Origin: an uncultured Clostridia bacterium
GTDB lineage: Bacteria > Bacillota > Clostridia > Oscillospirales > Ruminococcaceae
Direction of reading: 5' to 3'
Assembly: GCA_947627045.1 (NCBI GenBank)
Contig: CANQUM010000007.1
Location: forward strand, 1-64,000
DNA: 64,000 nucleotides
Each line of letters starts with the position of its first letter. The first letter of the stretch is position 1. The notes under the pieces were generated by a model. The model was not told where the DNA came from and ran no database searches. It saw only the letters and a program-made list of their open reading frames with translations. Shown here piece by piece: positions 12,290 to 29,185 of the stretch. The translations under genes and the position numbers were made by a program.

Positions 12290-12340
12290 TTGGCGGGATA
12301 AGAATCCATAAATTCTAAGAAATATTTGGGAGGGAAACAA

Positions 12341-14170
12341 ATGTACAACAGAAGAGAGTTGAAACATAAGGCGAGACAGTCGCTGAAGAAGCACTATTTT
12401 ATCTTCGTGATAGTCTGCCTGGTTGCCTGGTTCTTAGGATCTGGGGGAGGCGGCTCGACCAGTCAGAAGGGCAGAACCTATCAGCCCGTCCAGACCTCGG
12501 CCGAGCTGACGGGAAGCGATACATCGACGCTGAACACCGGTTTTCAGGGACTGCTGGAAGGAAAATCAATGGAGAAGCTCTTAGGCGGTCTGATGGAGTC
12601 CGGACTTGAGAAGATTGGTTCCAGCACGAAGGAATTCGCGGGGACTACGAAGGGAGTCTTCGCCTCTGTGGTGAAGGAGATCTCCTCGGGAACCTTCATT
12701 GAGACCATCGTATCGGCGGTCGTGTCCATGACGGGGGCGAACAGCATTCTACTTCTGCTTTTCATCCTGCTCAGCACGGCGGGCCTGCTGCTGGTGTGGT
12801 TCTATGTGGCGAACGTCTATACGGCGGTCTCCGCGCGTATGTTCCTGGAAGGGCGCACCTACGAGGAAGTGCCGGTGCACAGGTTTCTGCATTTTTACCG
12901 CATCCGCAAGTGGACGAAGGTGGCGTTTGCGATGCTGCGCTGCACGATCTATGAGACGCTGTGGTGGCTCACGATTGTGGGCGGAATAATCAAATCCTAC
13001 TCCTACCGCATGGTGCCGTACATCGTAGCGGAGAATCCGGGGATTTCCTCGAAGGAGGCAATCGCACTTTCGAGGAAGATGATGGACGGACACAAGTGGG
13101 AATGCTTCGTGCTGAACCTTACGTTCATCGGCTGGAGGATACTGGACGCCGTGACGATGGGCATTGTGGGCAAGCTCTACTCCGAGCCCTACCGTCAGGC
13201 GACCTTCGCGGAATACTACGCCTACGTGCGCGCTCTGGTGAAGGAAAAATCCATCGAGGGCAGCGAGCTGCTGAACGATACCTACCTGTTTGAGAAAGCG
13301 GATCGCATGGATCTGCTGTTTGCTTATGAGAAGGAGATCGACGCGATCGGCGAGCCGAAGCCGCCGAAGAAAGTGCGCACGGGAATCCTCGGATTCATCG
13401 CGGACGTCTTTGGCGTGACCCTTGTGAACGACAAGACGGAGCAGGATTACGACGAGTTCATGGCGAAGCACGACGTATACCTGTCGATGCGCGGCGAGAT
13501 GTCCGGAAAGGCTTATCCGGTTCGGCTCGGGCAGTACCAGAGGAAGGGCAAGGAGAAGAAGTTCCGCGGTATCTACTGCGAGCGTCATTACTCCATCTGG
13601 TCCCTGATTATGCTGTTTTTCATCTTCGCGCTCATCGGCTGGCTGTGGGAAGTAAGCCTGCATCTGGTCTCCGACGGCGAGTTCGTCAACCGCGGCGTCC
13701 TGTACGGCCCGTGGCTTCCGATCTACGGAACGGGCGGCGTGCTGATTCTCGTCGTGCTGAACAAGCTTCGCAGCAAGCCGCTTGCGGAGTTCTGCGCGAC
13801 CATCTTGCTCTGCGGCTGCGTGGAGTACTTCACCGCCTGGTACTTAGAGGCGACCCACGGCGGACAGAAGTGGTGGGATTACAGCGGATATTTCCTGAAT
13901 CTGCACGGAAGGATCTGTGCAGAGGGCCTGTTGGTGTTCGGACTTGGCGGCATGGCGATTGTCTACGTGGCCGCACCGTTTTTGGATAACTTTCTGCGAA
14001 AGATCAAGCTACAAATCATAGTTCCGCTCTGCGTGGTGCTGCTGGTGGCATTCACTGCCGACCAAATCTACTCGGGCAAACACCCGAACACCGGCAAGGG
14101 AATCACGGACTATGCGGTGCAGCTGCCGGAGCAGTTCTATTCAGGCCAAAGCATAAATACCCGATGCTGA
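12341..14170 (+). CDS. DUF975 / CmpB-type putative ABC transporter permease, multi-pass membrane protein
   Basis: 609 residues from ATG 12341; the ORF-track TTG at 12326 overlaps the ribosome site GGGAGG, so it is rejected. The N-terminal half resembles DUF975 (RRELKHKARQSLKKHYFIF, membrane segments near 20-35, 130-150 and beyond). The C-terminal third (FFIFALIGWLWEVSLH, GPWLPIYGTGGV, GQKWWDYSGYFLNLHGRIC) resembles the CmpB-like 'putative ABC transporter type IV' membrane family. It carries no ATPase domain. It is the first gene of a run with the ABC pair, 22 bases upstream of it. Function unknown; the joint domain layout is unusual. Confidence 0.75.
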   Translation: MYNRRELKHKARQSLKKHYFIFVIVCLVAWFLGSGGGGSTSQKGRTYQPVQTSAELTGSDTSTLNTGFQGLLEGKSMEKLLGGLMESGLEKIGSSTKEFAGTTKGVFASVVKEISSGTFIETIVSAVVSMTGANSILLLLFILLSTAGLLLVWFYVANVYTAVSARMFLEGRTYEEVPVHRFLHFYRIRKWTKVAFAMLRCTIYETLWWLTIVGGIIKSYSYRMVPYIVAENPGISSKEAIALSRKMMDGHKWECFVLNLTFIGWRILDAVTMGIVGKLYSEPYRQATFAEYYAYVRALVKEKSIEGSELLNDTYLFEKADRMDLLFAYEKEIDAIGEPKPPKKVRTGILGFIADVFGVTLVNDKTEQDYDEFMAKHDVYLSMRGEMSGKAYPVRLGQYQRKGKEKKFRGIYCERHYSIWSLIMLFFIFALIGWLWEVSLHLVSDGEFVNRGVLYGPWLPIYGTGGVLILVVLNKLRSKPLAEFCATILLCGCVEYFTAWYLEATHGGQKWWDYSGYFLNLHGRICAEGLLVFGLGGMAIVYVAAPFLDNFLRKIKLQIIVPLCVVLLVAFTADQIYSGKHPNTGKGITDYAVQLPEQFYSGQSINTRC

Positions 14171-14192
14171 GGCCGCAAGAAAGGAGAATGCT

Positions 14193-15938
14193 ATGTTTAG
14201 TTTTTTTGGAAAACAGATCAAGCCGTATCGCAAAATCATCTGCTGCGTGTTGCTTTTGCAGATAGGACAGACGCTGCTGTCTCTGTATCTGCCGAGGATC
14301 AACGCGGGGATCATCGACTACGGCGTAGCAAACGGCGATACGGGCTACATAATCAACAAGGGCATCATCATGGTGGTGCTGTCCATACTTCAGTTCGGCT
14401 GCGCCGTGGGCGCAAGCATACTGGGCGCGAAGGCCGCGCTGTCGGTCGGCCGCGACCTGAGGGAGAAGATATACACGAAGATCCTGTCCTACTCGCAGAG
14501 AGAGATTGCGAGCTTCGGAGCGCCGACGCTCATCACGCGCGCGACCAACGACGTCGAGCAGGTGGTTCGTTTCCTGACAATCCTGCTGACGGTGCTGATT
14601 ACCGCACCAGTCATGTTCGTGGTCGGCATTATCATGGCGATTGCGCAGAGCGTATCGCTCTCGGTCGTCATATTGGTTACCGTGCCGATGCTTGTGATTA
14701 TATCAGTCATATTCCTGATGAAAATGCTTCCGTACTACAAGGCGCAGCAGGAGCATATTGATGGATTGAACGTCATCCTCCGGGACCAGATCTCGGGCGT
14801 GCGTGTGGCGAAGGCGTTCACGCGCGAGCCGTTTGAGATTAAGCGCTTTGGAGTAGTCAACAAGGATCTCTCCGAGATCAACCTGGCTATCACCAGACTG
14901 AACTCCCTGATGAGCCCACTGTTCATGTTTATCGTGAATGCCGCTACAATCGCCATATTGTGGTTCGGCGGGTATTTGTCGGAGCAGGGTTCGGTGCAGG
15001 TCGGTGAGATCATCGCTTTCATTACCTATCTGTCATTTATCATGACGGCCACGCTCTCCGCGGCGATGGTGTTCATCCTGATGCCGAGAGCGGCGGTGGC
15101 GACGGACCGTATCATAGAGGTGCTGGACGCGGAAAGCTCGGTGGAGGACACCGAGAGTCCGGCCGCAACGAAATCCCTGCGCGGCGAGGTACGCTTCGAG
15201 GACGTGAGCTATTCCTACGCGCCGGATCATCCAGAGGTGGAGCCGGTTCTTCAGCATCTGTCCTTTACCGCGAAGCCGGGGACGACGACGGCGATTATCG
15301 GTTCCACGGGCAGTGGCAAGACGACGCTGCTGAACCTGATTCCGAGGCTTACCGACGCGACCGGCGGCGCCGTCTATTTCGATGGGATCAACGTGAAGGA
15401 TCTCAAGCAGGCGGAGCTGCGCTCCGCAATCGGCATGGTACCGCAGAAGGCCTTCCTCTTCGCAGGTTCGCTCGCGGATAATATGCGTTACGCAAGGAGC
15501 GACGCGACCGACGAGGAAATCTGGGAGGCACTCCGTGTGGCGCAGGCGGATGGATTTATAAAAGAGAACAAAGATGGGATCCATATGCGCGTGTCCGAGG
15601 GCGGCTCGAACTTCTCGGGCGGTCAGAGACAGCGTCTGGCGATTGCGCGGGCGATCGTCCGCAGACCGAAGGTCTACCTTTTTGACGACTCGTTCTCTGC
15701 ACTCGATTACGCGACGGACAAGAAACTGCGCGGCGAGCTCAAAGGCGTGACAGCCGACGCGGCGGTCATCGTGGTTGCACAGCGCATCAGCTCGGTGATC
15801 GATGCGGATAATATCATTGTTTTGAACAACGGAATGATCGAGGACATGGGGACGCACGACGAGCTGATCGAGCGCTGCGCGACCTATCAGGAAATCGCCT
15901 CGACCCAGCCGACGGAAGAATCGGAGGTGAGCGCATGA
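14193..15938 (+). CDS. ABC exporter half, degenerate-site subunit
   Basis: 581 residues, six-helix type I exporter domain then an ATPase domain. Walker A is GSTGSGKTT, signature FSGGQRQR, Walker B YLFDDSFSALD. The residue after Walker B is Asp where the catalytic Glu should be, as in the non-catalytic subunits of heterodimeric exporters (TM287/BmrC type). Good SD AAGGAG. The stop overlaps the next gene's start by 4 bases (ATGA), supporting a fixed 1:1 partner. Substrate unknown; context suggests the product of the adjacent ligases. Confidence 0.9.
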   Translation: MFSFFGKQIKPYRKIICCVLLLQIGQTLLSLYLPRINAGIIDYGVANGDTGYIINKGIIMVVLSILQFGCAVGASILGAKAALSVGRDLREKIYTKILSYSQREIASFGAPTLITRATNDVEQVVRFLTILLTVLITAPVMFVVGIIMAIAQSVSLSVVILVTVPMLVIISVIFLMKMLPYYKAQQEHIDGLNVILRDQISGVRVAKAFTREPFEIKRFGVVNKDLSEINLAITRLNSLMSPLFMFIVNAATIAILWFGGYLSEQGSVQVGEIIAFITYLSFIMTATLSAAMVFILMPRAAVATDRIIEVLDAESSVEDTESPAATKSLRGEVRFEDVSYSYAPDHPEVEPVLQHLSFTAKPGTTTAIIGSTGSGKTTLLNLIPRLTDATGGAVYFDGINVKDLKQAELRSAIGMVPQKAFLFAGSLADNMRYARSDATDEEIWEALRVAQADGFIKENKDGIHMRVSEGGSNFSGGQRQRLAIARAIVRRPKVYLFDDSFSALDYATDKKLRGELKGVTADAAVIVVAQRISSVIDADNIIVLNNGMIEDMGTHDELIERCATYQEIASTQPTEESEVSA

Positions 15939-17725
15939 GTACCGGAGAAGCGAAAAAGCCGAAAAAGAAAGTAAAGAAGGGCATGTTCCGAAAGCTGCTC
16001 GGACTCTTCGGGGAATACAAGGCAGCGTGCGTGCTGATGCTTGTGATGCTGATAGTGGCCGGCATCTTCACGGCGATAGGACCGCGCATCATGGGCAGCG
16101 CCACGGACGCGATCGTGGACGGGCTCGCTGCGGGAGGCATACACTGGAAGACGTTCATCTTTTGGGCGTGCGCGTCGATGGCAGTCTATATTCTTCAATT
16201 TGTCGCAAAATGGGTGGCGGGCCGAACCTCCGCAGGGATTACCTCGCGCATCGCGATGGACCTGCGCAGCAAGGTCGAAGAAAAGCTGTGGACCCTGCCC
16301 CTCAATTTCTACGATACGAACCAGCGCGGCGACATCATGAGCCGGACGTCCAACGATGTGGACAACGTGGTCCAGACGCTGAACCAGACCGGCGGTGATT
16401 TCGTCTACTACCTGCTGATGCTGATCGGCATGGTCGCTATGATGTTCATGCTGTCCTGGCAGCTGGCGCTTGTTACTGCTCTGCTAATCCCGCTCTCGGG
16501 CGTGCTCGTGAAGAAAATCACGACGGTCTCGAAGCCGGCGTTCCAGAGACAGTGGCAGTACATGGGCAGGATTAACGCAAACGTGGAGGAGAGCTTCAAC
16601 GGCCACAACATCATCAAGGCGTACGACCAGGAGGATCCGTTCAGCGAGACGTTCCGCGCTCAGAACACGGAGCTCTACAACACGACGATGAAGGCGACGA
16701 TTATCTCGAACCTGATCCAGCCGCTGTCGCGTCTGCTCACGAATCTGAACTACGTCATCGTGGCGCTGGTCGGTGCGTTCAAGATCATAGGCGGACAGAT
16801 GAGCGTGGGCGACGTGCAGGCGTTCATCCAGTACGCGAGACAGTTCCAGCAGCCGTTCAGCAACCTGGCGCAGATGATCAGTACTCTGCAGTCGGGCCTT
16901 GCCTCTTTGGAGCGCATCTACGACATGCTCGAGAGCGAGGACGAACTGGCGGACGCGGACGACGCATACGATGAGTACGAGCTCAAGGGTCAGATCGAAT
17001 TCCGCGACGTGTCATTCAGCTATACGCCTGAGAAGAAGCTTATCGAGCACATGAACCTCACCGTGAAGCCCGGACAGACCGTGGCGATTGTGGGCGGTAC
17101 GGGCGCAGGCAAGACCACGCTCGTCAACCTCATCGAGCGCTTCTATGAAATCAACAGCGGACAGATCATACTGGACGGAAACATTGAGCTGCACAAGCTG
17201 AGCCGCAAGGCGCTGCGCCGCAACATCGGCATGGTGCTTCAGGATACCTGGCTGTACAACGCTACGCTTGCAGAGAATATTATATACGGAGTACCGAAGC
17301 TGAAAGAGATCACGCGTGAAGACTTCTTCGGCGCCTGCGAGGCGACCTTTGTGGACAAATTCGTGAAATCACTGCCTCTGGGCTACGGGACGATTCTGAA
17401 CAACGAGCAGACGGCGGTATCCGCAGGCGAGAAACAGCTCGTGACGATTGCCAGGGCATTCCTCACGAAGCCGAACATCCTGATTCTCGACGAGGCGACG
17501 AGCTCGGTCGACACCAAGACCGAGGCGCAGATTCAGGAGGCCGTGAACCGGCTGCGCGAGGGCAGGACCAGCTTCATCATCGCCCACCGTCTATCCACGA
17601 TCCGCGGCGCGGATATAATCCTCGTCATGCAAAACGGACACATCGTGGAGCAGGGCAACCACGAGGAACTCTTAAAGCTCGGCGGCGAGTACGCAAGACT
17701 TTATCGCGCACAGTTCGCGAACTAA
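15935..17725 (+). CDS. ABC exporter half, catalytic-site subunit
   Basis: 596 residues, with a lysine-rich N-terminus (KKPKKKVKKG) before the membrane domain. Walker A GGTGAGKTT, Walker B ILILDEATSSVD with the catalytic Glu, but signature VSAGEKQ in place of LSGGQ. This complements the preceding subunit: each composite site mixes one canonical and one degenerate half, as in heterodimeric multidrug/lipid exporters. SD GGAGG immediately before ATG 15935 within the upstream gene. Confidence 0.9.
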   Translation: MSTGEAKKPKKKVKKGMFRKLLGLFGEYKAACVLMLVMLIVAGIFTAIGPRIMGSATDAIVDGLAAGGIHWKTFIFWACASMAVYILQFVAKWVAGRTSAGITSRIAMDLRSKVEEKLWTLPLNFYDTNQRGDIMSRTSNDVDNVVQTLNQTGGDFVYYLLMLIGMVAMMFMLSWQLALVTALLIPLSGVLVKKITTVSKPAFQRQWQYMGRINANVEESFNGHNIIKAYDQEDPFSETFRAQNTELYNTTMKATIISNLIQPLSRLLTNLNYVIVALVGAFKIIGGQMSVGDVQAFIQYARQFQQPFSNLAQMISTLQSGLASLERIYDMLESEDELADADDAYDEYELKGQIEFRDVSFSYTPEKKLIEHMNLTVKPGQTVAIVGGTGAGKTTLVNLIERFYEINSGQIILDGNIELHKLSRKALRRNIGMVLQDTWLYNATLAENIIYGVPKLKEITREDFFGACEATFVDKFVKSLPLGYGTILNNEQTAVSAGEKQLVTIARAFLTKPNILILDEATSSVDTKTEAQIQEAVNRLREGRTSFIIAHRLSTIRGADIILVMQNGHIVEQGNHEELLKLGGEYARLYRAQFAN

Positions 17726-17770: not shown

Positions 17771-19126
17771 ATGAAAATCGTATTCTACAACACATCGTCA
17801 TCTGTTATGGAAAACCGCAAGCTGTCGCTGCTCTATCCGAAGCGCGCCGAGTTGTGGGACGGCCTTGCGGCGCAGTATCCGGAGCATGAGATCTGCTTCG
17901 TGGCGACCAAGGGCGGCGACATCCTTATGGACGCCGACAACGGCGGAGAGCTTCCGCGCCCGCAGAACGTGCAGTACGTGCTCACCGAGGTAACGGACAG
18001 CGCGGATCAGATCGTCGATATCATCGCTGCCCAGAAGCCTGACGTGGTCATGGGGATTTCGACCGGCAACTATCCGATTGACTGGAACTTCATCAATGAC
18101 GCGGTGATTGCCGAGAAGCTTCGCGAGAAGGGAATTCGCACGATCGCACACCCCGTATCCACGGCTATGGCGTTCTACGACAAGTGGCGTTCGTCCATGG
18201 CACTGCGCTACTACGGCTTTAAGGTCGCAAAGAGCATCTTTGTTCACAACGACCAGTTCTGGGCAGAGCAGGTCATCGGGAACATTAAGTGCAACATTTA
18301 CAAGGAGTACATTTTATACAGAGTGAGCCAGTTCAACTACCCGGTCATCATCAAGGAAACGGTCAGCGCCGGCTCGATTGGGATTCAGACCGCGGACACT
18401 TTCGAGGAGGCCGCTGCTATTCTGACCTCCGAGAACAACAAGTCTGACGTGATCGTGGAAGAGCTCATCAAGGGCGAGGATTTCAGCGCGGAGGTTTACG
18501 GGGCGGACGGCGTGTACCATGTCTCCTACCCGATTCGCCTGTACATGGGCGACTCCACCCCGTTCGCGGGCGCGACAGACTCCTTCCAGAGCGTGAAGTT
18601 CGGCCCGATCACATCGGAAAAGTACCATGTGAAGGAGCTGCGTGAGACGCTGCTCAAGATGGCGAAGGATTATCAGTTCGGCGGTGGAGCCAACCTCGAC
18701 CTGATGTTCAAGGACGGCGAGTGGTACGTCATTGAGGTGAACCCGAGGTTCTCCGGTCTGACGAACACGGTGGCCGGGATTATGGACAGGAACCCGCTGA
18801 TTACCTACGCAGAGGGTATTTTCGGCGGCCCGAAGGAAGATTTTTCGGATCCGGCGAACCTCAAGTACGTGCTCAACTTCAAGATTCGCAAGATCGACGA
18901 GGAGATGTTCAAAAAGATCAGCGAGCGCAAGAGCGTGAAGCATATGTACTTAAGCGTGTCACAGTACGGCGAGAAGCTCTCGGAGTACTTTGAGGTAGTC
19001 ATCGGAGGCTTCGCTACGGGCGAGGAGCTCCTTGCAGAGCTCAAGAGCATAGCCGAGGAGTTCCCGGACGCCGTGTCTGAGAACACGATAAAGAATACGG
19101 CTTATCTGGTGGAGCAGTGCAAATAA
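17771..19126 (+). CDS. ATP-grasp carboxylate-amine ligase
   Basis: 451 residues. An N-terminal pre-ATP-grasp Rossmann-like domain (IVFYNTSSSVMENR at the start) is followed by ATP-grasp motifs: YPVIIKETVSAGSIG (nucleotide-binding loop), VEELIKGEDFSAE, and YVIEVNPRFSG (metal-binding Glu/Asn). Such enzymes activate a carboxylate as acyl phosphate and join it to an amine. SD GGAGG is 9 bases before ATG. It lies between the exporter pair and a second ATP-grasp gene, pointing to multi-step amide-bond formation. Substrates not inferable. Confidence 0.87.
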   Translation: MKIVFYNTSSSVMENRKLSLLYPKRAELWDGLAAQYPEHEICFVATKGGDILMDADNGGELPRPQNVQYVLTEVTDSADQIVDIIAAQKPDVVMGISTGNYPIDWNFINDAVIAEKLREKGIRTIAHPVSTAMAFYDKWRSSMALRYYGFKVAKSIFVHNDQFWAEQVIGNIKCNIYKEYILYRVSQFNYPVIIKETVSAGSIGIQTADTFEEAAAILTSENNKSDVIVEELIKGEDFSAEVYGADGVYHVSYPIRLYMGDSTPFAGATDSFQSVKFGPITSEKYHVKELRETLLKMAKDYQFGGGANLDLMFKDGEWYVIEVNPRFSGLTNTVAGIMDRNPLITYAEGIFGGPKEDFSDPANLKYVLNFKIRKIDEEMFKKISERKSVKHMYLSVSQYGEKLSEYFEVVIGGFATGEELLAELKSIAEEFPDAVSENTIKNTAYLVEQCK

Positions 19127-19147
19127 GGTTTGAAGGAGGTTTTTGCT

Positions 19148-20074
19148 ATGCGTGATTTTAAACAGCCATGGATGCTGTGTGCGAACGTGGACGATCTGGT
19201 CGAAAAGTACGGGATCGAGATGCTCAAGATGGACACCCCGGTCTTCAAGGTGCGCGGAAAGGACGGCAAGGAATATGTTCACAAGATGGACGCACCAATC
19301 TTTAAGAGGGTCATCCTCGAATATCTGGATCTCAGCATCGATCCGGGCAATCAGCTCAGGGCGCACTATCTGGGTGAGGAAGTGAAGCTGCCGGAGTACT
19401 TCCTTCCGGCAATCTCGAATACGGACGCGCTCGTGGCCGAGCATCTTCTGATCCAGGCGGGGTGCAAGTGCATCCTGAATCTGGAGGAGTTCGCCGCCGC
19501 GCGCAGCAAGATCATCACCTACGGCCGCCTTGCTGCGAACGGGGTTCGCGTGCCGCGCACGATTGTGATCTTCAAGCACAGCGACAGGGATTCGATTGAG
19601 AAGGAAATGGGCTTCCCGTTTGTCATCAAGCCGGACAATGGGTACGGCGGCGTTGGTGTGGAGTTGATCCATTCGCGGGAGGAGCTTGACGCATATCTGG
19701 ATCATCAGGATCCTGGCGTATCCTATATGGCGCAGGAGTACATCAGTACCTCCTTCGGACGCGACCTGCGCGTCGTCATGCTGAAGGGCAAGTACTTCTA
19801 TTCCGCTACGAGGAATTCCAACAATACCGAGGAGTTCCGCTCGAACGTCCATCAGGGCGGCTCGATTACGGAGTGTCCCATCGACGACAAGGTGCTCGCG
19901 CTTTGCGAGAAGGTCGCGGGACTGTTCGACCTGCCGCTTCTGGGACTCGACCTGCTCTTTGGGGACGGCGAGTACGTCGTCGTCGAGGTAAACGCGATGC
20001 CGGGTCTCGACAATGAGCGCACGGCGCAGGTTCACCAGATACTTCTGGACGATTTTATGAAAAAGAATCAATAA
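19148..20074 (+). CDS. RimK-like ATP-grasp ligase
   Basis: 308 residues from ATG 19148, preceded by GAAGGAGG; the track start at 19130 overlaps this site. Motifs: FPFVIKPDNGYGGVGV, AQEYISTSFGRDLRVV, EFRSNVHQGGS and VVEVNAMPGL, the RimK/lysX-like set used to add amino acids to carboxylates. It differs from the previous ATP-grasp in fold details, so it is not a simple duplicate. Gap of 18 bases to the GH3 gene. A role in ligating an amino acid to the same product is inference. Confidence 0.87.
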   Translation: MRDFKQPWMLCANVDDLVEKYGIEMLKMDTPVFKVRGKDGKEYVHKMDAPIFKRVILEYLDLSIDPGNQLRAHYLGEEVKLPEYFLPAISNTDALVAEHLLIQAGCKCILNLEEFAAARSKIITYGRLAANGVRVPRTIVIFKHSDRDSIEKEMGFPFVIKPDNGYGGVGVELIHSREELDAYLDHQDPGVSYMAQEYISTSFGRDLRVVMLKGKYFYSATRNSNNTEEFRSNVHQGGSITECPIDDKVLALCEKVAGLFDLPLLGLDLLFGDGEYVVVEVNAMPGLDNERTAQVHQILLDDFMKKNQ

Positions 20075-20092: not shown

Positions 20093-21799
20093 ATGCTCCA
20101 GAAACGAAACATTCCCAAAGACATTGATCCGAAGGATCCTTTGTATACGGCGTACCAGGTGTTCAACGAGACAGTGGACATGTGTATGGACGCGCGTCGT
20201 TACAGCCACGAGCTGCTGATGCAGCTCGTGCGCGACAATGAGGAGACCGAGTTTGGGAAGAAATACGGCTTCAAAGAGATCCGTTCGGTGGAAGATTACA
20301 AGAAGCGTGTACCGTTTTCCTCGTACGACGACTACGCCGTGGCGATTGAGCGGATGGTGAAGGGGGAGAAGAACCTCATCACCGCTTATCCCGTCGTGCA
20401 CTACGCACTGACGTCCGGAAGCGTGGACAATCCCAAGAACATTCCGGTGAGCAGCCGTACGATGGAGGCGTATATGAAATACGCATCCAACCTTTCCAGC
20501 TGCATCTACGATTTTGCCATACGCGAGAGGAAGGGACGTTCCCCGAAGCAGGGCAAGCAGTTCCTCACTGCGGTCGTCAAGACTGACTACACGCCGGACG
20601 GGACGCTGCGCGGTCCGATCTCATCGGCGATCTACCTGCAGAACAAAGCGTTTATGCACTATATTCTGCCTTGGCCGGTGGAAGTGATGTACCCGGAGGG
20701 GCACTCGCTGAACCAGAAATACCTGCGCGCGTTTTACGCCTTGAAGGAGAGGGGCATCACGCGCATGGTCGCGCCGTTTATGACGGCTCTGGTGGACAGC
20801 ATGTACTACATAGAGATCAACTGGCGCTCGCTTGTCGGCGACATCGAGGCCGGGAAACTGGACGACGACGTCGATATGGACGAGGAACTCCGGGAAAGAT
20901 TCAACGCACAGCTTGCACCGGATCCCGAGCGGGCCGCCGAGCTGAGGGCGATCTTTGAGCAGGGCTTTGAGGAGCCTGTGATTCCGAAGATCTGGCCGGA
21001 CTGCGACTTTATCGCATCGATTGGCGGCGGCGGATTTGCCGCATACACCAAGAAAATGAAACGCTATTCCGGGGATATCCCTATGTACTTTAACTGTTAT
21101 GGGGCGTCCGAGGGTCCAATCGCGACGATCATGGACTTCGAGTCCTTCGAGAACACGCTGATTCCGGCAAACGGCTTCTTCGAGTTCATTCCGGTGGAGG
21201 AGGACGGCAGCGATCCCACGAGGACACTCGGCCTCGACGAGCTGGAGGTCGGACACGAGTACGAGATTATCGTCACTAACCTCACGGGCTTCTACCGCTA
21301 CCGCATCGGCGACGTGATAGAGGTGGCCGGCTATGACGGTCAGTCCCCGCGGCTTCTGTTCAAGTACCGCAAGAACCAGATGATCAGCATCGCCGGAGAG
21401 AAGACGAACGAGGCGGGCGTCGCCTGGGTTGTGCACGAGTTTGAGAAGGAGACCGGGGAGTCGATTACGGACTTCAGCATCTACGCGGACACGGACGACC
21501 TTCCGGGGCGCTACGTGCTGTTTTTGGAACCTGAGCGACATCTGCCGCTCGAGGAGTATGAGCGGTACCGGACCATCTGCGACGAAAAGATGGGAATTGC
21601 GAACCCGTCCTACGGCTCAAAGGTGAAGGAAAAGCTGCTGCTGTCTCTGAAGCTGAACTTCCTACAGCAGGAGACCTACTATCTCTATCGCGATATGATG
21701 GTGATGAGGGGTATTTCCGAGAACCAGATCAAGCCGGTGCGGGTGATTGACACGCCGCGGAAGGAAAAATTCTTCTTCGGTCTGATCGACAAGGAATAG
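20093..21799 (+). CDS. GH3-family acyl-acid amido synthetase
   Basis: 568 residues, the usual length for GH3 enzymes. ANL-type adenylation motifs: HYALTSGSVDNPKNIP (phosphate loop), CYGASEG (adenine/acid site), YRYRIGDV (hinge region) and a C-terminal domain. Plant GH3 proteins adenylate a small carboxylic acid and conjugate it to an amino acid; bacterial members are mostly uncharacterised. Placement after two ATP-grasp ligases and an exporter suggests synthesis of an acyl-amino-acid or peptide-like conjugate. SD GAGGGGGAG precedes the ATG. Confidence 0.87.
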   Translation: MLQKRNIPKDIDPKDPLYTAYQVFNETVDMCMDARRYSHELLMQLVRDNEETEFGKKYGFKEIRSVEDYKKRVPFSSYDDYAVAIERMVKGEKNLITAYPVVHYALTSGSVDNPKNIPVSSRTMEAYMKYASNLSSCIYDFAIRERKGRSPKQGKQFLTAVVKTDYTPDGTLRGPISSAIYLQNKAFMHYILPWPVEVMYPEGHSLNQKYLRAFYALKERGITRMVAPFMTALVDSMYYIEINWRSLVGDIEAGKLDDDVDMDEELRERFNAQLAPDPERAAELRAIFEQGFEEPVIPKIWPDCDFIASIGGGGFAAYTKKMKRYSGDIPMYFNCYGASEGPIATIMDFESFENTLIPANGFFEFIPVEEDGSDPTRTLGLDELEVGHEYEIIVTNLTGFYRYRIGDVIEVAGYDGQSPRLLFKYRKNQMISIAGEKTNEAGVAWVVHEFEKETGESITDFSIYADTDDLPGRYVLFLEPERHLPLEEYERYRTICDEKMGIANPSYGSKVKEKLLLSLKLNFLQQETYYLYRDMMVMRGISENQIKPVRVIDTPRKEKFFFGLIDKE

Positions 21800-21829
21800 C
21801 TGCCGAATGTTAATATTTGGCGGCAAAAA
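21800..21829 (+). terminator. Possible weak terminator after GH3 gene
   Basis: TGCCG..AAT and ATTTGGCGGCA can pair with a 2-base bulge and are followed by AAAA rather than T. Position after the GH3 stop fits a transcript end, but the structure is weak. Confidence 0.3.
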
Positions 21830-22318
21830 GCGGATATTCTGTGATAAAATTAAATAGGAAAAAAGTAATTGAATTTTGAGTCCTTATCGTGTGAATGGGG
21901 AGCGGACACCTGTACCCTGGAGGACGGGAGTTGTCTGCTGCTCTCCGTGCGGCACAGCGCTGGGATCCGCGCACCTACGGCAACTATGTGTTCGACCGGT
22001 TGTCCCGGCGGAAAGGATTACAATAAAAAGTAAGAAGACCCGTCATGGTGACCTATCTGCAGCTGGAGTTTTTTATCCTGATCTTTTCGATGCTGCTCTT
22101 TGTTACCGTGACGTTCTACTGTGACAAGATCACCGGAAGCCATTATATTTAGAGACGCTCGTGCAGCTGCGGAGCTTTCTGATGCTGGTCATTCTGGTGG
22201 ATCAGGTCGTTTGACTGAACATACTGGAGTAAATGAGCCGTGCCGAACGGCGGCGGACGCGTGTCAAAGCGCACGGTTTATCAAATAAAAGCAAAAACAA
22301 AAAATGGAGGATACTGCT
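21830..22318 (+). pseudogene. Degenerate stretch with remnants of a membrane protein
   Basis: No intact gene. A frame ending at 22025 reads ALRAAQRWDPRTYGNYVFD and RLSRRKGLQ, protein-like but without a start. ATG 22045 opens 35 codons (MVTYLQLEFFILIFSMLLFV..) forming one membrane helix, and a shifted frame continues (LVQLRSFLMLVILVDQVV), as if a membrane protein was broken by frameshifts. It separates the ligase/export genes from the partner-switch genes, so the two halves may once have been joined by another gene. Family unknown. Confidence 0.4.
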
Positions 22319-22615
22319 ATGACAATCAACAAAAAACAAGAGGGAACTACACTTGAGATTGCGGTCGAGGGACGTCTCGACACGACGACCGCGCCCCAGC
22401 TCGAGGCGGAGCTGAAGCACAGCATCGACGGTATCACGGCCCTGACGATGGATTTCGCGAATCTGGAGTACATCTCATCCGCAGGACTGCGCGTGCTGCT
22501 GTCCGTACAGAAGGTGATGAACAAGCAGGGCAGCATGGTGGTTCGCCATGTCAACGAGATGATCAGCGAGATCTTTGAGGTAACCGGCTTCGTCGATATC
22601 CTGACGATTGAGTAA
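22319..22615 (+). CDS. STAS-domain anti-sigma-factor antagonist-like protein
   Basis: 98 residues from ATG 22319; the track start 22304 is inside the SD (TGGAGG). Single STAS domain: IAVEGRLDTTTAPQLE, then LEYISSAGLRVLL, where the Ser pair is the site phosphorylated in SpoIIAA/RsbV. Expected to bind the HATPase kinase at 28778 when unphosphorylated and to be reset by the PP2C phosphatase next door. First gene of the second half of the island. Confidence 0.92.
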   Translation: MTINKKQEGTTLEIAVEGRLDTTTAPQLEAELKHSIDGITALTMDFANLEYISSAGLRVLLSVQKVMNKQGSMVVRHVNEMISEIFEVTGFVDILTIE

Positions 22616-22659
22616 AAGCATTTATTTAAAGAAATGGCACAGAGAAAGGAATGAACCGC

Positions 22660-24819
22660 ATGAATGATGCTAACAAACCGATGGTACCGCTGGAAAAAAA
22701 GGTGTTCCGGGCGATACTTCGACTTTTGCTGGTTACATTGCTGGTGGTGGGAGCCGTGATCGTTTTCCAGCTTCTTCAGCTGCGAAGAGGCATGATCACC
22801 GCGAACGTGGAGACCGGGCAGGAGGTGGAATCGATTTCCTCACAGGCGATGGAAGAGATGATGGAGGAAAATCTCCTGCGCCTGACTGCGGAAAAAGCAT
22901 CGGCGGCGGATAAGGTATTCTCGGATCTGGGTCAGACGGTCTCTATTCTAGCGAAGAACGCGGAGTATCTGTATGAGAACGACGCGAAGATCGATGGGGT
23001 CGAGGTTCATCTGCCCGACCGGAAGAACGGAGACGCATTGGATGTGTACGTTACTTACTCGGATAAGGCGGATCAGTCTTCCAAAAAGTTTCAGACCGAG
23101 CAGGAGCTGCTCGGCAATCTGCAGTGGGATCTTCTGGCGGTTACCTCGGAGCATGAGGAAGTCAATTCAGACTATTTCGCTGCCGAATCCGGCTTCATGC
23201 TCCAGGCGGACAATGTTTATCAGGAACAGTTTGACGATGAGGGAAACCTGCTCACGTTTGAGGCGAAGGAGCGTCCATGGTATCAGGGAGCGGTCGAAGC
23301 GAACGGGCTCTATTTTACGGAACCTACACATGACGCGTCCACCGGGGATTTCGCCGTCATGTGCAGCATTCCGGTCTATGACCGTAAGGAGCTGAAGGGC
23401 GTCGCAGGGGCAGGCATGTATCTGACCAGCCTGAAGGAAACTGTGTCGGAGGCCGTGATCGGAGAATCCGGCTCCGCCTGCCTGCTGGACGGGAACGGAA
23501 ACGTCATCTTTTCCACCAGAAACTCCGGGGAACTCTCGGCCGGCGCTGAGGACCTGGCGAACGCCCTCGATACGACTAAGGGGGATCTGAAGCAGTTCCT
23601 CATCGAAGCGGTCGGCGGCACGCAGGCGGTCTCGCTGACTGCGGTCGACGGAGAGAATGCGTACGTATCCTGCTCGCCGCTCGGCACGGTGGGATGGACG
23701 CTGATCTCGGTGCTGCCGGAGGATATCGTAACCGCGCCGACCCAGAGTTTGACAGGTGCGCTGGCGACGAAGAACGATGAGATGCTGCAGCAGTCCGACC
23801 GGAGGTTTCTGACTGCGTTTATCACACTGCTGGTGGCGGTGGTAGTTCTGATGCTGGTTGCGAACCTGGTATCCAAGAGGCTGTCCTCGCGGCTTACACA
23901 GCCGATCGTGGCGCTCACCGACAAAGTGAGGGAGATCGAGGGAGACAATCTGTCTTTTACCTGGGATCAGCATACGAATGATGAGATCGATGTGCTGGCG
24001 AATTCCTTCGGCACCATGACGAAGCGCATCGAGCAGTACATTGCAGATATCACGGCAATCACGGCGGAGAAGGAGCGCATCGGTGCGGAGCTTTCCGTGG
24101 CGACGCAGATCCAAGCGGATATGCTGCCCTGTATCTTCCCGGCATTTCCGGAGCGCGAGGATTTCGATATCTACGCTTCCATGTGTCCGGCCAAGGAGGT
24201 GGGAGGAGACTTCTATGACTTCTTCCTTATGGATGACGATCATCTTGTGATGGTGATGGCGGACGTGTCGGGCAAGGGAGTTCCGGCCGCGCTGTTCATG
24301 GTTATCTCTAAGACGATCATCAATAACCAGGCGCAGTTCTCGGATTCACCGAAGCAGATCCTGGAGACGGCAAACAATCTGCTGCAGGAGAACAATGCGG
24401 AGGATATGTTCGTGACGGTCTGGCTGGGTATCCTGGAGATATCAACCGGCAAGCTCAAGGCGGTGAACGCTGGACATGAGTATCCGGTGATCCGCGGGAC
24501 AGACGGGAAGTTTGAGATTCTGAAAGATAAGCACGGCATGGTACTCGGGACGATTCCGGGTTTGAAATACAGAGAATACGATGCCGAGATTGAGGAGGGC
24601 GGCTGCCTGTTCCTGTACACGGACGGTGTGGCGGAGGCGACCGACGCGAAGAACGAGTTGTACGGCACCGAGCGGATGCTGGAGGCTTTGAACCGCGATC
24701 CGTTGGCGAATCCGCAGCAGCTGCTCGTCAACGTGAGGGCGGACATTGACGCGTTTGTGGGCGACGCGCCGCAGTTTGACGATATCACGATGATGGCGAT
24801 GGAGAGAAAAAAACAGTGA
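22660..24819 (+). CDS. Cache-HAMP-SpoIIE (PP2C) sensor phosphatase
   Basis: 719 residues from ATG 22660; AAAGGA abuts the ATG at 22651, so the second ATG has the better spacing. Membrane helix near 20-40, an extracellular region of about 340 residues resembling a double Cache sensor (PWYQGAVEANG, FTEPTHDASTGD), a second helix (LTAFITLLVAVVVLMLV), HAMP, a short coiled coil, then PP2C: ATQIQADMLPCIFP, GGDFYDFF, ADVSGKGVPAALFM and DDITMMAM with the metal-binding Asp residues. It should dephosphorylate the STAS protein in response to an outside ligand. Confidence 0.92.
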   Translation: MNDANKPMVPLEKKVFRAILRLLLVTLLVVGAVIVFQLLQLRRGMITANVETGQEVESISSQAMEEMMEENLLRLTAEKASAADKVFSDLGQTVSILAKNAEYLYENDAKIDGVEVHLPDRKNGDALDVYVTYSDKADQSSKKFQTEQELLGNLQWDLLAVTSEHEEVNSDYFAAESGFMLQADNVYQEQFDDEGNLLTFEAKERPWYQGAVEANGLYFTEPTHDASTGDFAVMCSIPVYDRKELKGVAGAGMYLTSLKETVSEAVIGESGSACLLDGNGNVIFSTRNSGELSAGAEDLANALDTTKGDLKQFLIEAVGGTQAVSLTAVDGENAYVSCSPLGTVGWTLISVLPEDIVTAPTQSLTGALATKNDEMLQQSDRRFLTAFITLLVAVVVLMLVANLVSKRLSSRLTQPIVALTDKVREIEGDNLSFTWDQHTNDEIDVLANSFGTMTKRIEQYIADITAITAEKERIGAELSVATQIQADMLPCIFPAFPEREDFDIYASMCPAKEVGGDFYDFFLMDDDHLVMVMADVSGKGVPAALFMVISKTIINNQAQFSDSPKQILETANNLLQENNAEDMFVTVWLGILEISTGKLKAVNAGHEYPVIRGTDGKFEILKDKHGMVLGTIPGLKYREYDAEIEEGGCLFLYTDGVAEATDAKNELYGTERMLEALNRDPLANPQQLLVNVRADIDAFVGDAPQFDDITMMAMERKKQ

Positions 24820-25988
24820 GAGTATTATTACATACCAGGGGTCTTGTCGCGCTCGCGGCGGCCGCCCTTCTAGCCGTGGGCACGCTCACGAACTGCAAAG
24901 CGGCGAATGAACCGGAGCGCGTGGCGCGGAATGATGTGAAGATCGGCTGCATCATCGCGGAGGAGTACGGAAGCTTTTCCGAGCAGCTCTCGGCGGCGAC
25001 GGAGAGCTTAAGCCGGCAGGGACTCATAGGGGAATACGATCCTCCTGCGGGCGTACGCCCGGCACAGGATGTATGGGACGACATCTGCGAGGTGCAGCAG
25101 ATCGAGAACGCCGAGTTTGTGAGAGAGAGCTTCTACAACACGGATCAGATGGAAGAAAGTGAGATGGAGGACGTCTTTTTCCACGAGAGCGACGTCGACC
25201 TTATGCTGGTCTTCGGGACGGCGGCGGGCGTATGGCTCACCGAGAACGCCTCGAAGCTTTCGTTTGAATATATGGTCTTTGCGAGCGCCGACCCGATTTC
25301 GGGTGGAATCGTGAAGAGCGAGACGGAGCGCTTCAACGACATCTCGTTTGCCCATGTGGATCCGGGGCGGCTCGGCAGACAGACCGAGCTGGCCTACGAG
25401 ATCATGCCGTTTGACTCGATCGGAGTGGTCTATGAGGATTCCGATGCTGCCTACAGCTATTCGGGAATTGCCCAGCTCGAAGCCCTGAGTGAAAAGAACG
25501 GGTTTGAGATTCACAGGCTGCATGTTGATGAGCCAAGCAAGGACAACAATTACACCCGCTATTACAATGAGCTGAAGGCTGCGTACCACGAGTTGCTCCC
25601 AGACATTGACGTTCTGTATATCACAACGGGAATGATCGAGGACAATATGTTGCCGTGGCTGCTTGAAGAGGTGCACGAAGCAGGGATCATCACGGTGGCG
25701 GAGACCGCGGAGAGCCAGGTGGAATACGGGGCACTGATGCACATTACGATGTCGGACGCGTCGGAGGAGGGAGGCTTCCTCGCGCAAACGCTGATAGACT
25801 ACCTGGACGGTACCCCAATCGACGAGCTGGATCAGGTATTTCTGATCACGCCGCATATTTCCCTGAATCTGGAAACAATAGAAAAAGTAGGGGCGAAGAT
25901 CCCGATGAGCATATACCTGATCGCAGACAAGATCTACGGACAGGAGACAGACGCGGCGACCGGGACGGAAACGGGAAATGAATCGTAA
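24816..25988 (+). CDS. ABC-type substrate-binding lipoprotein (ABC_sub_bind-like)
   Basis: 390 residues, GTG start overlapping the phosphatase stop by 4 bases (GTGA). Signal peptide with lipobox LTNC near residue 27. The mature part has two periplasmic-binding lobes resembling the PF04392/TrpX-like family (VKIGCIIAEEYGSFSEQL, DLMLVFGTAAGVW, YITTGMIEDN). No matching permease or ATPase of an importer is encoded here, so it may pass ligand occupancy to the Cache phosphatase or to the next membrane protein. That link is inference. Confidence 0.8.
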   Translation: MRVLLHTRGLVALAAAALLAVGTLTNCKAANEPERVARNDVKIGCIIAEEYGSFSEQLSAATESLSRQGLIGEYDPPAGVRPAQDVWDDICEVQQIENAEFVRESFYNTDQMEESEMEDVFFHESDVDLMLVFGTAAGVWLTENASKLSFEYMVFASADPISGGIVKSETERFNDISFAHVDPGRLGRQTELAYEIMPFDSIGVVYEDSDAAYSYSGIAQLEALSEKNGFEIHRLHVDEPSKDNNYTRYYNELKAAYHELLPDIDVLYITTGMIEDNMLPWLLEEVHEAGIITVAETAESQVEYGALMHITMSDASEEGGFLAQTLIDYLDGTPIDELDQVFLITPHISLNLETIEKVGAKIPMSIYLIADKIYGQETDAATGTETGNES

Positions 25989-26004
25989 GATTGGAAGAGG
26001 AAAC

Positions 26005-26967
26005 ATGCACAACAAACAACGACTCATGATAGAACTTCTGGCGCTGCTGCTGACGGTGATCACGCTGGTTCTGGGCGGGCTGATGTATTTCAGCAACCTC
26101 AAGAATACCAGGCAGAATCTTATCGGAGTGGAGCTGGCGGATTTTATCTACAATACCGATTACAGTATGAAATTTGGCAAGAGGATTGAGACGTTCTACG
26201 GGATGCAGGAAGACCTGCTTGAGCTGCGTGACTCGTTCGACGACGTGGATGAGCTGCACATTCTCTCTGTGAGGAACCGGCTGCTGTTTTCCACGGAACC
26301 GGCGATGCTGACGGAACGCGCGTATTCCATGCCAGCGGGGAACAATATGAGCGACGGGAATCATCTCTACTGTATGTACGCGGTGGGCGACGACGCGCGC
26401 ATCCTGACGGTCAGCAAGATTTCAGACATACATCGGGAGATGGGTAGCTATCTTCTGAAGCTCGTGGGAATCGCGGCGGTCGGTCTTGTCCTTGTGCTGC
26501 TGTTGATACATCTGGTCTGGAGGCTGCTCCTGGAGGGGAAGAGTGCGTACCGTATCGCGGCGGTCGTGCCCCTGATCTGGATCGCGGCATTCAGCGTGAT
26601 GACAGGTGTGGACGCATACCGCGATTACGCCGGGAGTTCCCGGGAACTCTGCGAGTCCATCGGGGAATCGGTGCAGGCGGACATCGCGAATGTGGAGGCA
26701 CTCGGCGTCGCGCGGGAGGACTTTTACGAGGTGGAGGCTTATCTGCAGCGCTACACGGATCTAATACCGGAGGTGGAGGAGCTGTCCATCGGGGAGGACG
26801 ACGAGATATCCTACAAGATGTCGGCGGATTACCTCCGCAAGATGGCGCTGGACTATGTCCTGCAGGCGGTGCTGCTTCTGACCTTTTCGATTTTGATCTT
26901 GGCGGAGTATCAGTTATTTGTTACAAATACGGGAACACTAACGGAGGGGCAAAATGGAACAGACTGA
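26005..26967 (+). CDS. Membrane protein with extracytoplasmic sensor-like domain
   Basis: 320 residues from ATG 26005 (GGAAGAGGAAAC upstream); an in-frame ATG at 25978 overlaps the previous gene. One helix near 10-30, a 120-residue outside domain, two helices near 150-210, a second outside segment, and a final helix. No known enzymatic motif; no kinase or cyclase domain. The layout resembles an extracytoplasmic sensor or scaffold and its place between the lipoprotein and the MFS gene suggests a joint role. Family not recognised. Confidence 0.65.
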   Translation: MHNKQRLMIELLALLLTVITLVLGGLMYFSNLKNTRQNLIGVELADFIYNTDYSMKFGKRIETFYGMQEDLLELRDSFDDVDELHILSVRNRLLFSTEPAMLTERAYSMPAGNNMSDGNHLYCMYAVGDDARILTVSKISDIHREMGSYLLKLVGIAAVGLVLVLLLIHLVWRLLLEGKSAYRIAAVVPLIWIAAFSVMTGVDAYRDYAGSSRELCESIGESVQADIANVEALGVAREDFYEVEAYLQRYTDLIPEVEELSIGEDDEISYKMSADYLRKMALDYVLQAVLLLTFSILILAEYQLFVTNTGTLTEGQNGTD

Positions 26968-28120
26968 ATTTATGAAACAGAATGCGTTTGTCCGCCTGAT
27001 CTTCGTGTTTGCCTTCTTCGCCGCGTCGATCGGCGACTCGTTCAACGTCGTCTATATCCGGCAGATGACGATGGCAGTACCGGGAGGAAACGTGGATCTG
27101 CTGGTGAGTCTTCCGATCACCTTTCTCTCGGCGATGACGGTGTTGGGCGTGATCGTCTCCGGCGGGATATGCAGGCGGACGAAACGCTTCGGCTCTTTTC
27201 TGAGTGTCGGAGTGCTCGCCCTGATGCTCGGTCTGATCGTAAGGGGAGCTGCGACGGATTATCGCATGCTATTCCTCGGCTTCGGCATATCCGGTTTCGG
27301 GAGCGGCTGTCTCTTTATCGGCATACGCTACTATTCGTTCCTCTTTGCGGACGACAGGCAGAGGATGCGTGCACTCGTGTATGTGAACGGCGGTGCGTTT
27401 GCCGGACAGTGCATGGGCACGATCCTGGGCGGTATACTGGCAAATCAGCTGGCTTACTCCCACATTTATCTGGGCTCCGCTGTGATTTTGCTGGTGCCAT
27501 TAGTTATGTCGCTGAGGGTACGGGTCGAGGGGAGAGTGGAGGCGGGAAGCTACGCGGACATTTTCCGGGTGCTGAAGAATGTGCGCGCCCTGAAATTTCT
27601 GCTGTTCCTGCTACTGCCGGTCTACACTAGCTCGGTATTCATATCGTACATTGTGCCGCTCTTTGTCAACGAATACGGGTATTCCGCGACGGTAACCTCG
27701 GTGCTGATGCTGTCGAATTACCTGCTCTGCGCGTATGTGGGGCCGTTCATGACCGACTTTGTATCCGACCGTATGTCGTCTCTTAAGGCCACATACCTCT
27801 ACATGGTGGCGAGCGCGGTGCTAATCATACTGTACGGCTGGATTGCGGTGATGCCTCTGTTGGTGCTGGCCGTGTTGCTCTGCGGAGTGCTGGACTCGTT
27901 CGGTCTTTCTGTGATTATGGACGCGTTTACGAAGACGAAGACCACACAGAGCTATTCCGACAACGACGCGCTGATCATCTTCATCCTGGTGTCAAGGGTG
28001 GGGCAGATGATCGGACCGACGCTGATCCTGGTGTCCGGCGGCGTGATGTTCCTGGGACTGTTTCTGCTTGTCGGGTTCGGGGTGTATCTCGCGCTGGCGA
28101 GAATTCCAAAAAAGTCCTGA
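26954..28120 (+). CDS. MFS transporter
   Basis: 388 residues with about 12 hydrophobic segments. RRTKRFGSFLS fits the loop 2-3 region and GFGSGCLFIGIRYYSF the helix 4 region of major facilitator proteins. SD ACGGAGGGG precedes ATG 26954, 14 bases inside the previous gene. Likely exports or takes up a small molecule linked to the island's pathway; a second route beside the ABC pair. Confidence 0.85.
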   Translation: MEQTEFMKQNAFVRLIFVFAFFAASIGDSFNVVYIRQMTMAVPGGNVDLLVSLPITFLSAMTVLGVIVSGGICRRTKRFGSFLSVGVLALMLGLIVRGAATDYRMLFLGFGISGFGSGCLFIGIRYYSFLFADDRQRMRALVYVNGGAFAGQCMGTILGGILANQLAYSHIYLGSAVILLVPLVMSLRVRVEGRVEAGSYADIFRVLKNVRALKFLLFLLLPVYTSSVFISYIVPLFVNEYGYSATVTSVLMLSNYLLCAYVGPFMTDFVSDRMSSLKATYLYMVASAVLIILYGWIAVMPLLVLAVLLCGVLDSFGLSVIMDAFTKTKTTQSYSDNDALIIFILVSRVGQMIGPTLILVSGGVMFLGLFLLVGFGVYLALARIPKKS

Positions 28121-28176
28121 CGGGAATGTTTCGTACGGAAAATAATAAGGACGATCTACAGGGGGGGTAGCGAGAC

Positions 28177-28764
28177 ATGGATTATGTGAAGGAATCGAAT
28201 ATCCCGTTTCTGATGAAAATGTTTGACGAGAATTTCGGTGAGCGTTATATGTCGGAGGATGAGATTCGCTGGCATATCAACGATGAAAACGAATTCTTTT
28301 ACGCAGCGAGGAGGGAGGACGGCCGCCTTGCGGGGATTGCGCTGTTCGGGGTGGAATCGGAGCAGAAGCTGCACGAGGAGACGAAGATTCCGCGCGAGGA
28401 GCTGAAGCGGCTGGCGCACGGGAAGCAGCTGGTCAAGTTCCGGAGCATGTGTATATCCTCGGACTGCCAGGGGCAAGGGATAGGCTCGAAACTTCTGGCC
28501 GACGCAATCGCGGATCTGAATAGTCGTGGAAAATTCGGGGCTGTCACCTCGCTGATCTGGACGTACGACGACAAGGTCCCGGCGCGGGGAGCGCACCTGA
28601 AAAATGGCTTCCGCTATCTGCACAGGGTTTCCCGGCCCTGGTACCATATGAAGGATTATTACTGCGTCTTCTGCAAGGGCCGCTGCAAATGCGACGGCGT
28701 GCAGTATGTTCTGGAACTGGAGGATGAACATGTGGGCGATGCCCCAGACGGCGAGGCAGGATGA
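28177..28764 (+). CDS. GNAT-family N-acetyltransferase
   Basis: 195 residues. MCISSDCQGQGIGSKLL contains the acetyl-CoA pyrophosphate loop (QGxGIGskL). Upstream FFYAARREDGRLAGIALFG is the usual GNAT beta strand region; the end carries CVFCKGRCKC, a cysteine cluster of unknown use. SD AGGGGGGG precedes the ATG. It lies between the transporter and the kinase gene; it could acetylate the exported compound or a protein of the switch. Confidence 0.85.
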   Translation: MDYVKESNIPFLMKMFDENFGERYMSEDEIRWHINDENEFFYAARREDGRLAGIALFGVESEQKLHEETKIPREELKRLAHGKQLVKFRSMCISSDCQGQGIGSKLLADAIADLNSRGKFGAVTSLIWTYDDKVPARGAHLKNGFRYLHRVSRPWYHMKDYYCVFCKGRCKCDGVQYVLELEDEHVGDAPDGEAG

Positions 28765-28777
28765 AGGAGGGATTCAG

Positions 28778-29185
28778 ATGAAAGAAATGACAATCGAGGC
28801 GAAAGTGGAAAACATCCCTGTAGTCACGGAGTTTGTGGACGGACAGCTCGAGGCACACGGCTGTTCCATGAAAGCACAGATGCAGATCAACATCGCAATC
28901 GACGAGCTGTTCGGCAACATCGCGAATTACGCTTACGAGACAGGCGATGGTGCGGTTACGGTGCGCGTGGAGCTGAAGGAGGATCCGCTTTCGGTGGTGA
29001 TCACCTTCATCGACAACGGCATGCCCTACGATCCGCTTAAGAAAGAGGATCCTGACGTTACGCTCTTTGCGGAGGATAGAGAGATCGGCGGACTCGGCAT
29101 CTACATGGTCAAGAAGATCATGGACGGCATGAACTACGAGTACAGGAACGGACAGAACATTCTGAAGATAACAAAGAATATATAA
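28778..29185 (+). CDS. RsbW/SpoIIAB-like serine kinase (anti-sigma type HATPase)
   Basis: 135 residues from ATG 28778 (GAAGGAGG upstream); the track start at 28706 lies inside the GNAT gene. GHKL motifs: N box AIDELFGNIANYAY, G1 IDNGMPYDPL, G2 GGLGIYMVKK. Expected to phosphorylate the STAS protein. No sigma factor gene is present in the window, so the client released by the switch is unknown; it could be an enzyme or transporter of this cluster or a sigma factor elsewhere. Last gene of the island. Confidence 0.92.
   Translation: MKEMTIEAKVENIPVVTEFVDGQLEAHGCSMKAQMQINIAIDELFGNIANYAYETGDGAVTVRVELKEDPLSVVITFIDNGMPYDPLKKEDPDVTLFAEDREIGGLGIYMVKKIMDGMNYEYRNGQNILKITKNI

Follow-up and report, generated by a model that had tools for sequence, protein, structure and literature searches.

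A 64,000-nucleotide stretch of DNA from an uncultured Clostridia bacterium of the Ruminococcaceae (hereafter the window) carries a complete partner switch, made up of a STAS protein, a PP2C phosphatase and an RsbW-type serine kinase, without a sigma factor in the same cluster. The window is contig C7 (CANQUM010000007.1) of a 2.1 Mb genome with a completeness of 99.8%, and contains an island at ~11.6-29.2 kb with a guanine-cytosine content of 55%, against 39% for the surrounding contig. Seven genes, all intact and on the + strand, form the 3' end of this island and encode, in order, STAS, PP2C, a lipoprotein (LIPO), a membrane protein (TM), an MFS protein, a GNAT acyltransferase and the kinase. 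The initial annotation described the three switch proteins as intact, the phosphatase as having an outside sensor, and the other four genes as bracketed by them; Pfam matches, sequence motifs and ratios of nonsynonymous to synonymous substitution (dN/dS) bear this out.

The switch proteins and the genes between them

The STAS protein (22319..22615, +) is of the anti-sigma-antagonist type (Pfam E 1.7e-13) and has its phosphoacceptor serine intact in the motif YISSAGL. Its start was placed at 22319, in agreement with the initial annotation, where it is preceded by a GGAGG ribosome site that a longer open reading frame starting at 22304 would overlap. The phosphatase (22651..24819, +) is of the SpoIIE/RsbU type and combines an extracytoplasmic dCache_1 sensor domain (9.7e-19), a HAMP domain and a SpoIIE domain (8.3e-49) in which the metal-binding aspartates are kept. 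The kinase (28778..29185, +; HATPase_c_2, 5.4e-22) has solved relatives in 1til, 1l0o and 6m36 and keeps its catalytic residues. Its true start, set by a ribosome site, is 28778 (GGAGGgattcagATG) and not the open reading frame start at 28706. We aligned 52 family kinases with three controls, SpoIIAB (1til), RsbW (6m36) and the host's own SpoIIAB; the equivalents of Glu46, Asn50, Gly107 and Gly109 were invariant in 52/52 family members. Between the window and L019, an independent assembly of a congeneric species, dN/dS was 0.02-0.17 for all ten genes compared and 0.08-0.17 for the three switch genes. Elsewhere, a PP2C phosphatase and an RsbW-type kinase occur as one polypeptide (L105:5343-7934, L126, L140, L143, L152 and L153).

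The nearest solved relatives of the dCache domain are amino-acid chemoreceptors, PctA and PctC being the closest. The amino-acid motif of the PctA type comprises, in PctA numbering, Tyr121, Arg126, Trp128, Tyr129 and Asp173 (PMC10104139). Arg126, Trp128 and Tyr129 are kept in the window protein; Tyr121 is replaced by Phe and Asp173 by Gly. With the motif incomplete, we rejected the domain as a canonical amino-acid sensor. Judged from these residues, the pocket is predicted to retain its carboxylate-binding side and to have lost the side that contacts the amine.

Four genes lie between phosphatase and kinase. LIPO (24816..25988, +) is a lipoprotein with a class I substrate-binding (ABC_sub_bind-like) fold, supported by a PF04392 score of 25.8 against a cut-off of 25.9 and by a match to 6hni (4e-07); its nearest solved relative is the tyrosine-binding CD0873. 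No importer permease or ATPase was recognised beside it in the window, nor by eye in its relatives, and the MFS gene is found instead; lacking an ABC permease and ATPase of its own, LIPO does not qualify as the substrate-binding lipoprotein of an ABC transporter. A search of TM (25978..26967, +) against solved structures by sequence gave nothing useful, and the lead came from the structure model alone, which predicts four helices and two extracytoplasmic alpha/beta (Cache/PAS-like) sensor domains resembling, at low similarity, those of WalK and KinD. The MFS protein (26954..28120, +) has drug exporters as its nearest solved relatives. The reading frames overlap by 4 bases between PP2C and LIPO, 11 between LIPO and TM, and 14 between TM and MFS; translational coupling of these genes therefore looks likely. 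The GNAT acyltransferase (28177..28764, +) ends in a C-x2-C-x-G-R-C-x-C motif that was invariant in 9/9 relatives and represents a possible metal site. A GNAT alignment built from loci beyond Lachnospiraceae (A5) matches solved GNATs.

Sigma factors in the island, the genome and related loci

Regulation of sigma factors is the textbook role of partner switches; most known exceptions act on second-messenger enzymes or on secretion. As the initial annotation stated, the cluster encodes no sigma factor, and we found none anywhere in the island. We then extended the question to the whole genome, as the initial annotation had proposed, using region 2 and region 3 models. Thirteen proteins with sigma-70 region 2 were found: RpoD, SigE, SigF, SigG, SigK, one SigH-like factor and seven of the extracytoplasmic function (ECF) type. 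Region 3, a trait of SigB-type factors, was present only in RpoD, SigF and SigG, and by these models the genome has no SigB-type factor; the best score listed among SigE, SigF and SigG with the SigB model (TIGR02941) was 126.8, against a cut-off of 315.

Searched with a profile built from the cluster kinases, 150 Lachnospiraceae genomes gave 48 matches, in 40 of them. We read 45 kinase loci, inspecting each for sigma genes out to 7 kb or to the end of the contig where this came sooner. A PP2C gene was present in 34 and a STAS gene in 35; a group-3 sigma gene (SigB/F/G type) was present within that distance in 0/45. Sigma contact has been reported for Arg20 and Lys41 of SpoIIAB (PMC10345196). 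A basic residue occupies both equivalent positions in each of the 3 sigma-binding controls and in none of the 52 family kinases; the window kinase has Thr in place of Arg20 and Asn in place of Lys41.

These results bear on the possibility that a sigma factor encoded outside the cluster (SigF, SigG, FliA or an ECF factor) is what the kinase holds, with the cluster serving as a member of the regulon or as a sensor. The genome does offer SigF, SigG and seven ECF factors. Moreover, an ECF gene lies 5.7-6.1 kb from the kinase at 3/45 loci, and in the close relatives L020, L021, L022 and L025 such a gene is found 5-7 kb downstream, inside a cluster of the type that makes ribosomally synthesised and post-translationally modified peptides (RiPPs). 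However, a like ECF gene accompanies a RiPP-type cluster without any kinase in L037, L051 and L054, and SigF adjoins its own SpoIIAA and SpoIIAB. In the host genomes of L027, L029 and L030 the only region-3 factors are RpoD and one factor of the FliA/WhiG type. Together with the missing basic pair and the absence of group-3 neighbours, these observations make a sigma factor acting in trans very unlikely in our assessment. We consider it highly probable that the client of the kinase/STAS switch is something other than a sigma factor.

Recurrence of the module and its variable enzymes

A search with TM in the window's own gene order returned almost no matches, and a LIPO profile took its place; one match to TM, G287, was a chance match, the matching frame, on visual inspection, belonging to DNA gyrase subunit A. 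The LIPO profile found relatives in 12 of 399 genomes sampled across the phylum and in 10 of 397 Lachnospiraceae genomes. The distant Lachnospiraceae loci L027-L030, which include those of the isolates MA2020 and [Eubacterium] cellulosolvens LD2006, keep the set in a rearranged order (STAS is taken up below), with protein identities of 41-65% for STAS, LIPO, MFS, kinase and PP2C and ~30-36% for TM and GNAT. A PP2C gene is present at every Lachnospiraceae LIPO-MFS locus on an adequate contig, that of L101 being degenerate, and a kinase gene lies within 10 kb of LIPO-MFS in 5/9 Lachnospiraceae loci (chance ~0.2% per locus; binomial 7e-12). Two Lachnospiraceae loci, L095 and L096, have LIPO-TM without MFS or switch.

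Beyond Lachnospiraceae, the core consists of LIPO and a fused TM-MFS chain of ~740-820 residues, often with GNAT and usually without STAS, PP2C or RsbW. Visual inspection places some of these loci near RiPP-type clusters; others stand alone or belong to contractile injection clusters, recognised by the Pfam families Baseplate_J, Pvc16_N and eCIS_core. TM and MFS form one polypeptide in most distant relatives, and in L098 TM, MFS and LIPO are joined in a single protein of 1147 amino acids. Proteins of ~1000 amino acids with a C-terminal MFS domain occur in L146 and L148. LIPO/TM-MFS units or STAS-RsbW genes were also seen within contractile injection (eCIS-like) clusters in L056, L058, L064, L101, L148 and L152.

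The enzyme encoded with the module varies. GNAT has its place taken by an alanine racemase in L099 and L103, by an aminomutase and a D-Ala-D-Ala-ligase-like protein in L097 and L098, and by a formyltransferase-like protein in L100 and L063. In the window a second enzyme, a GH3-family amide synthetase-like protein (20093..21799, +), is encoded immediately upstream, associated with the core seven genes and outside them; GH3 is likewise found at the module in L101 and L102. Its best NCBIfam match, below the cut-off, is OlsH, which acts in ornithine-lipid formation (PMC12493201). The exporter can also be exchanged, as the GH3-centred loci L105, L110 and L112, which have no LIPO, carry the switch and a MATE exporter that replaces MFS. 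Several MATE exporters end in an RsbW-like HATPase_c_2 domain (L105:10508-12247, L114:3076-4836, L115:4465-6219 and L113:3080-4852; weak in L110 and L117), and these proteins adjoin PP2C and RsbW genes in L114 and L115 and a PP2C-RsbW fusion, STAS and GH3 in L105. MATE model matches at distance 0 from kinases were an artefact of the model's own RsbW-like tail and were not counted. The switch and an exporter are the constant elements, with LIPO-TM-MFS as the constant companion of the switch; the enzyme is variable.

This variability bears directly on the possibility that the kinase or STAS controls GNAT, GH3 or both, as SiaC does the cyclase SiaD. Gene proximity speaks for such a client: GNAT adjoins RsbW in the window, L019-L021, L024, L029 and L030, and GH3 adjoins STAS in the window, lies inside STAS/PP2C/RsbW clusters in L105, L110 and L112, and is enriched in LIPO-positive genomes (3/5 versus 9/145, p 0.004). 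The unusual, invariant Cys motif of GNAT also fits with it. Against this, the switch stays constant while the enzyme differs from locus to locus, and distant lineages have GNAT without a switch. An enzyme client therefore seems unlikely, and GNAT in particular is an unlikely general client because the switch persists where other enzymes replace it (L097, L099 and L100).

The island extends further upstream, with a DUF975/CmpB membrane protein and two ABC exporter half-transporters (12326..17725, +) followed by two ATP-grasp ligase genes (17771-19126 and 19130-20074, +). Between GH3 and STAS (21800..22303, +), a response regulator of the LytTR type and a histidine kinase resembling AgrC survive as remnants; L020, L021 and L025 have both genes intact, and in L110 STAS follows a pair of similar kind. 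The limits drawn by the initial annotation therefore hold for the core seven genes and fall short of the whole unit, which takes in GH3 beside STAS and the decayed two-component pair between them. In L020-L022 and L025 the switch is followed directly on its 3' side by RiPP-type export genes (HlyD-like and ABC transporters) together with genes for a leader-like peptide and an ECF sigma factor, and in L022 all of these come before the kinase gene.

L019 has the island at the identical site, and we therefore rejected an assembly artefact or contamination. Nucleotide identity between the two assemblies is 93-97% for the island genes and 95.5% for the downstream flanking recR; this equal divergence indicates that the island was probably already present when the two species separated. 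The switch cluster is also found at ~87% nucleotide identity in Lachnospiraceae assemblies, mostly from one rabbit series, which points to transfer from Lachnospiraceae. The island core recurs in several assemblies of that series.

Possible clients and comparison with known systems

A constant switch and exporter accompanied by a variable enzyme is most simply read as control between the switch and the exporter/sensor unit, in one direction or the other. The MATE-HATPase_c_2 fusions place an RsbW-like domain directly on an exporter. We propose, with about even confidence, that this is a sigma-free partner switch that would gate, or be driven by, a unit for sensing or exporting an amino-acid-type compound modified by the cell itself. 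An outside ligand, probably an amino-acid-type compound, would act on the dCache domain of PP2C; PP2C would dephosphorylate STAS and the kinase would rephosphorylate it. The partner gained or released in this cycle would most likely be the LIPO-TM-MFS membrane unit, so that sensing or export of a compound modified by GNAT and GH3 would be switched post-translationally. Our confidence in LIPO-TM-MFS as the client is evenly balanced, and we infer its role as client rather than as an additional input, as we do the phosphorylation cycle, the class of ligand and the direction of MFS transport. An N-acylated amino acid, for example one produced by GNAT or GH3, would be a good fit for the dCache pocket, and such a molecule as signal or cargo would be consistent with the likenesses noted for dCache, LIPO, MFS, TM and GH3. 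The initial annotation suggested an enzyme or a transporter of the cluster as the client; gene content and fusions favour this suggestion, and GNAT is unlikely to be the general client.

Alternatively, LIPO, TM and MFS might signal to PP2C, MFS acting as a receptor, with an unlinked protein or second-messenger enzyme as the output. The two sensor-kinase-like ectodomains modelled for TM, the binding-protein nature of LIPO, the lack of an obvious output protein in the cluster and the occurrence of LIPO-TM-MFS elsewhere without the switch would all fit a purely input role. However, PP2C has an ectodomain of its own, and the fusion of MATE exporters to an RsbW-like domain speaks for exporters being on the output side. 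We regard this input-only arrangement as quite unlikely.

Several observations weigh against the export/sensor unit as the client of a sigma-free switch. The LIPO-TM-MFS(-GNAT) unit is found with no switch in many Bacillota; the switch is therefore an add-on, for which the unit might serve only as the sensor. No STAS gene was found nearby in L027, L030, L098 or L103. Many kinases of the subfamily adjoin nonribosomal peptide synthetases, RiPP exporters, contractile injection genes or nothing obvious, and with such diverse neighbours the subfamily may not share a single client. The canonical amino-acid motif of dCache_1 is altered at two positions, as described above. Finally, the sigma-contact comparison used three sigma-binding controls only, and in SpoIIAB the contact with SpoIIAA takes in Arg20 as well, which means that loss of this residue does not bear on sigma binding alone.

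A more far-reaching and tentative proposal is that Lachnospiraceae have widespread sigma-free switches with an MFS or MATE exporter as the direct client. The cycle would switch on or off the export of an amino-acid derivative that an exchangeable neighbouring enzyme produces, and the product might be read outside by PP2C, LIPO and TM in a self-sensing loop. If the exporter is indeed the client, transport here would be under a post-translational switch, and gut bacteria would have a new way of signalling to one another chemically. A kinase subfamily without a SigB-type neighbour, without the sigma-contact residues, and found beside exporters and amino-acid-modifying enzymes is present in about one quarter of the sampled Lachnospiraceae genomes. 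The wider picture, of a seven-gene set recurring in Lachnospiraceae at identities as low as ~46% and of a sigma-free kinase subfamily, is new; a literature search of open-licence papers found none that describes the module, which is weak evidence of novelty. The module is carried by the cultured relatives Lachnospiraceae MA2020 and [Eubacterium] cellulosolvens LD2006.

The RsbU-RsbV-RsbW/sigmaB and SpoIIE-SpoIIAA-SpoIIAB/sigmaF systems of Bacillus likewise combine a PP2C phosphatase, a STAS protein with a phosphoacceptor serine and a serine kinase of the Bergerat fold. The window module shares with RsbUVW a SpoIIE-domain PP2C, a STAS protein with its phosphoacceptor Ser and a kinase with N, G1 and G2 boxes, and departs from it in the SigB-type sigma gene, which is missing from both cluster and genome, in the replaced equivalents of Arg20 and Lys41, and in its linkage to LIPO-TM-MFS and amino-acid enzymes. 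In UhpC/UhpB, an MFS protein serves as a receptor and is encoded with a signalling protein. The window resembles this pair in encoding an MFS protein, possibly one that senses rather than transports, together with signalling proteins, and differs in that UhpC/UhpB is a histidine-kinase system with no PP2C, STAS or RsbW.

Two further systems show that the initial annotation, in stating that the kinase of known systems holds a sigma factor, was too narrow: SiaABC acts on a cyclase and BtrUVW on secretion (PMC7647112, PMC8256260). In Bordetella, the partner-switch orthologues BtrU-BtrV-BtrW are linked to the control of a secretion apparatus (PMC8256260); their neighbours differ from those described here, and their mode of action is also unsettled. 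SiaABC(D) of Pseudomonas aeruginosa likewise has a membrane PP2C with HAMP and an ectodomain, a kinase, a STAS-like protein and a non-sigma output (PMC7647112, PMC8457831), the likeness to SiaB being by description. This PP2C/kinase/STAS trio has a diguanylate cyclase as its client and shows that such trios can serve a client other than a sigma factor, for which the authors list further cases (PMC7647112). SiaA is the top NCBIfam match of the window PP2C (1.4e-21, below the cut-off). The output of SiaABCD is the diguanylate cyclase, whereas the neighbours here are an exporter, a binding protein and enzymes; no GGDEF domain was found among the island genes at 12-29 kb, and the operon-encoded cyclase of SiaABCD thus has no counterpart among them. 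On this comparison, the module would best be read as a sigma-independent switch similar in logic to SiaABC, with an exporter, the candidate client, in place of the cyclase.

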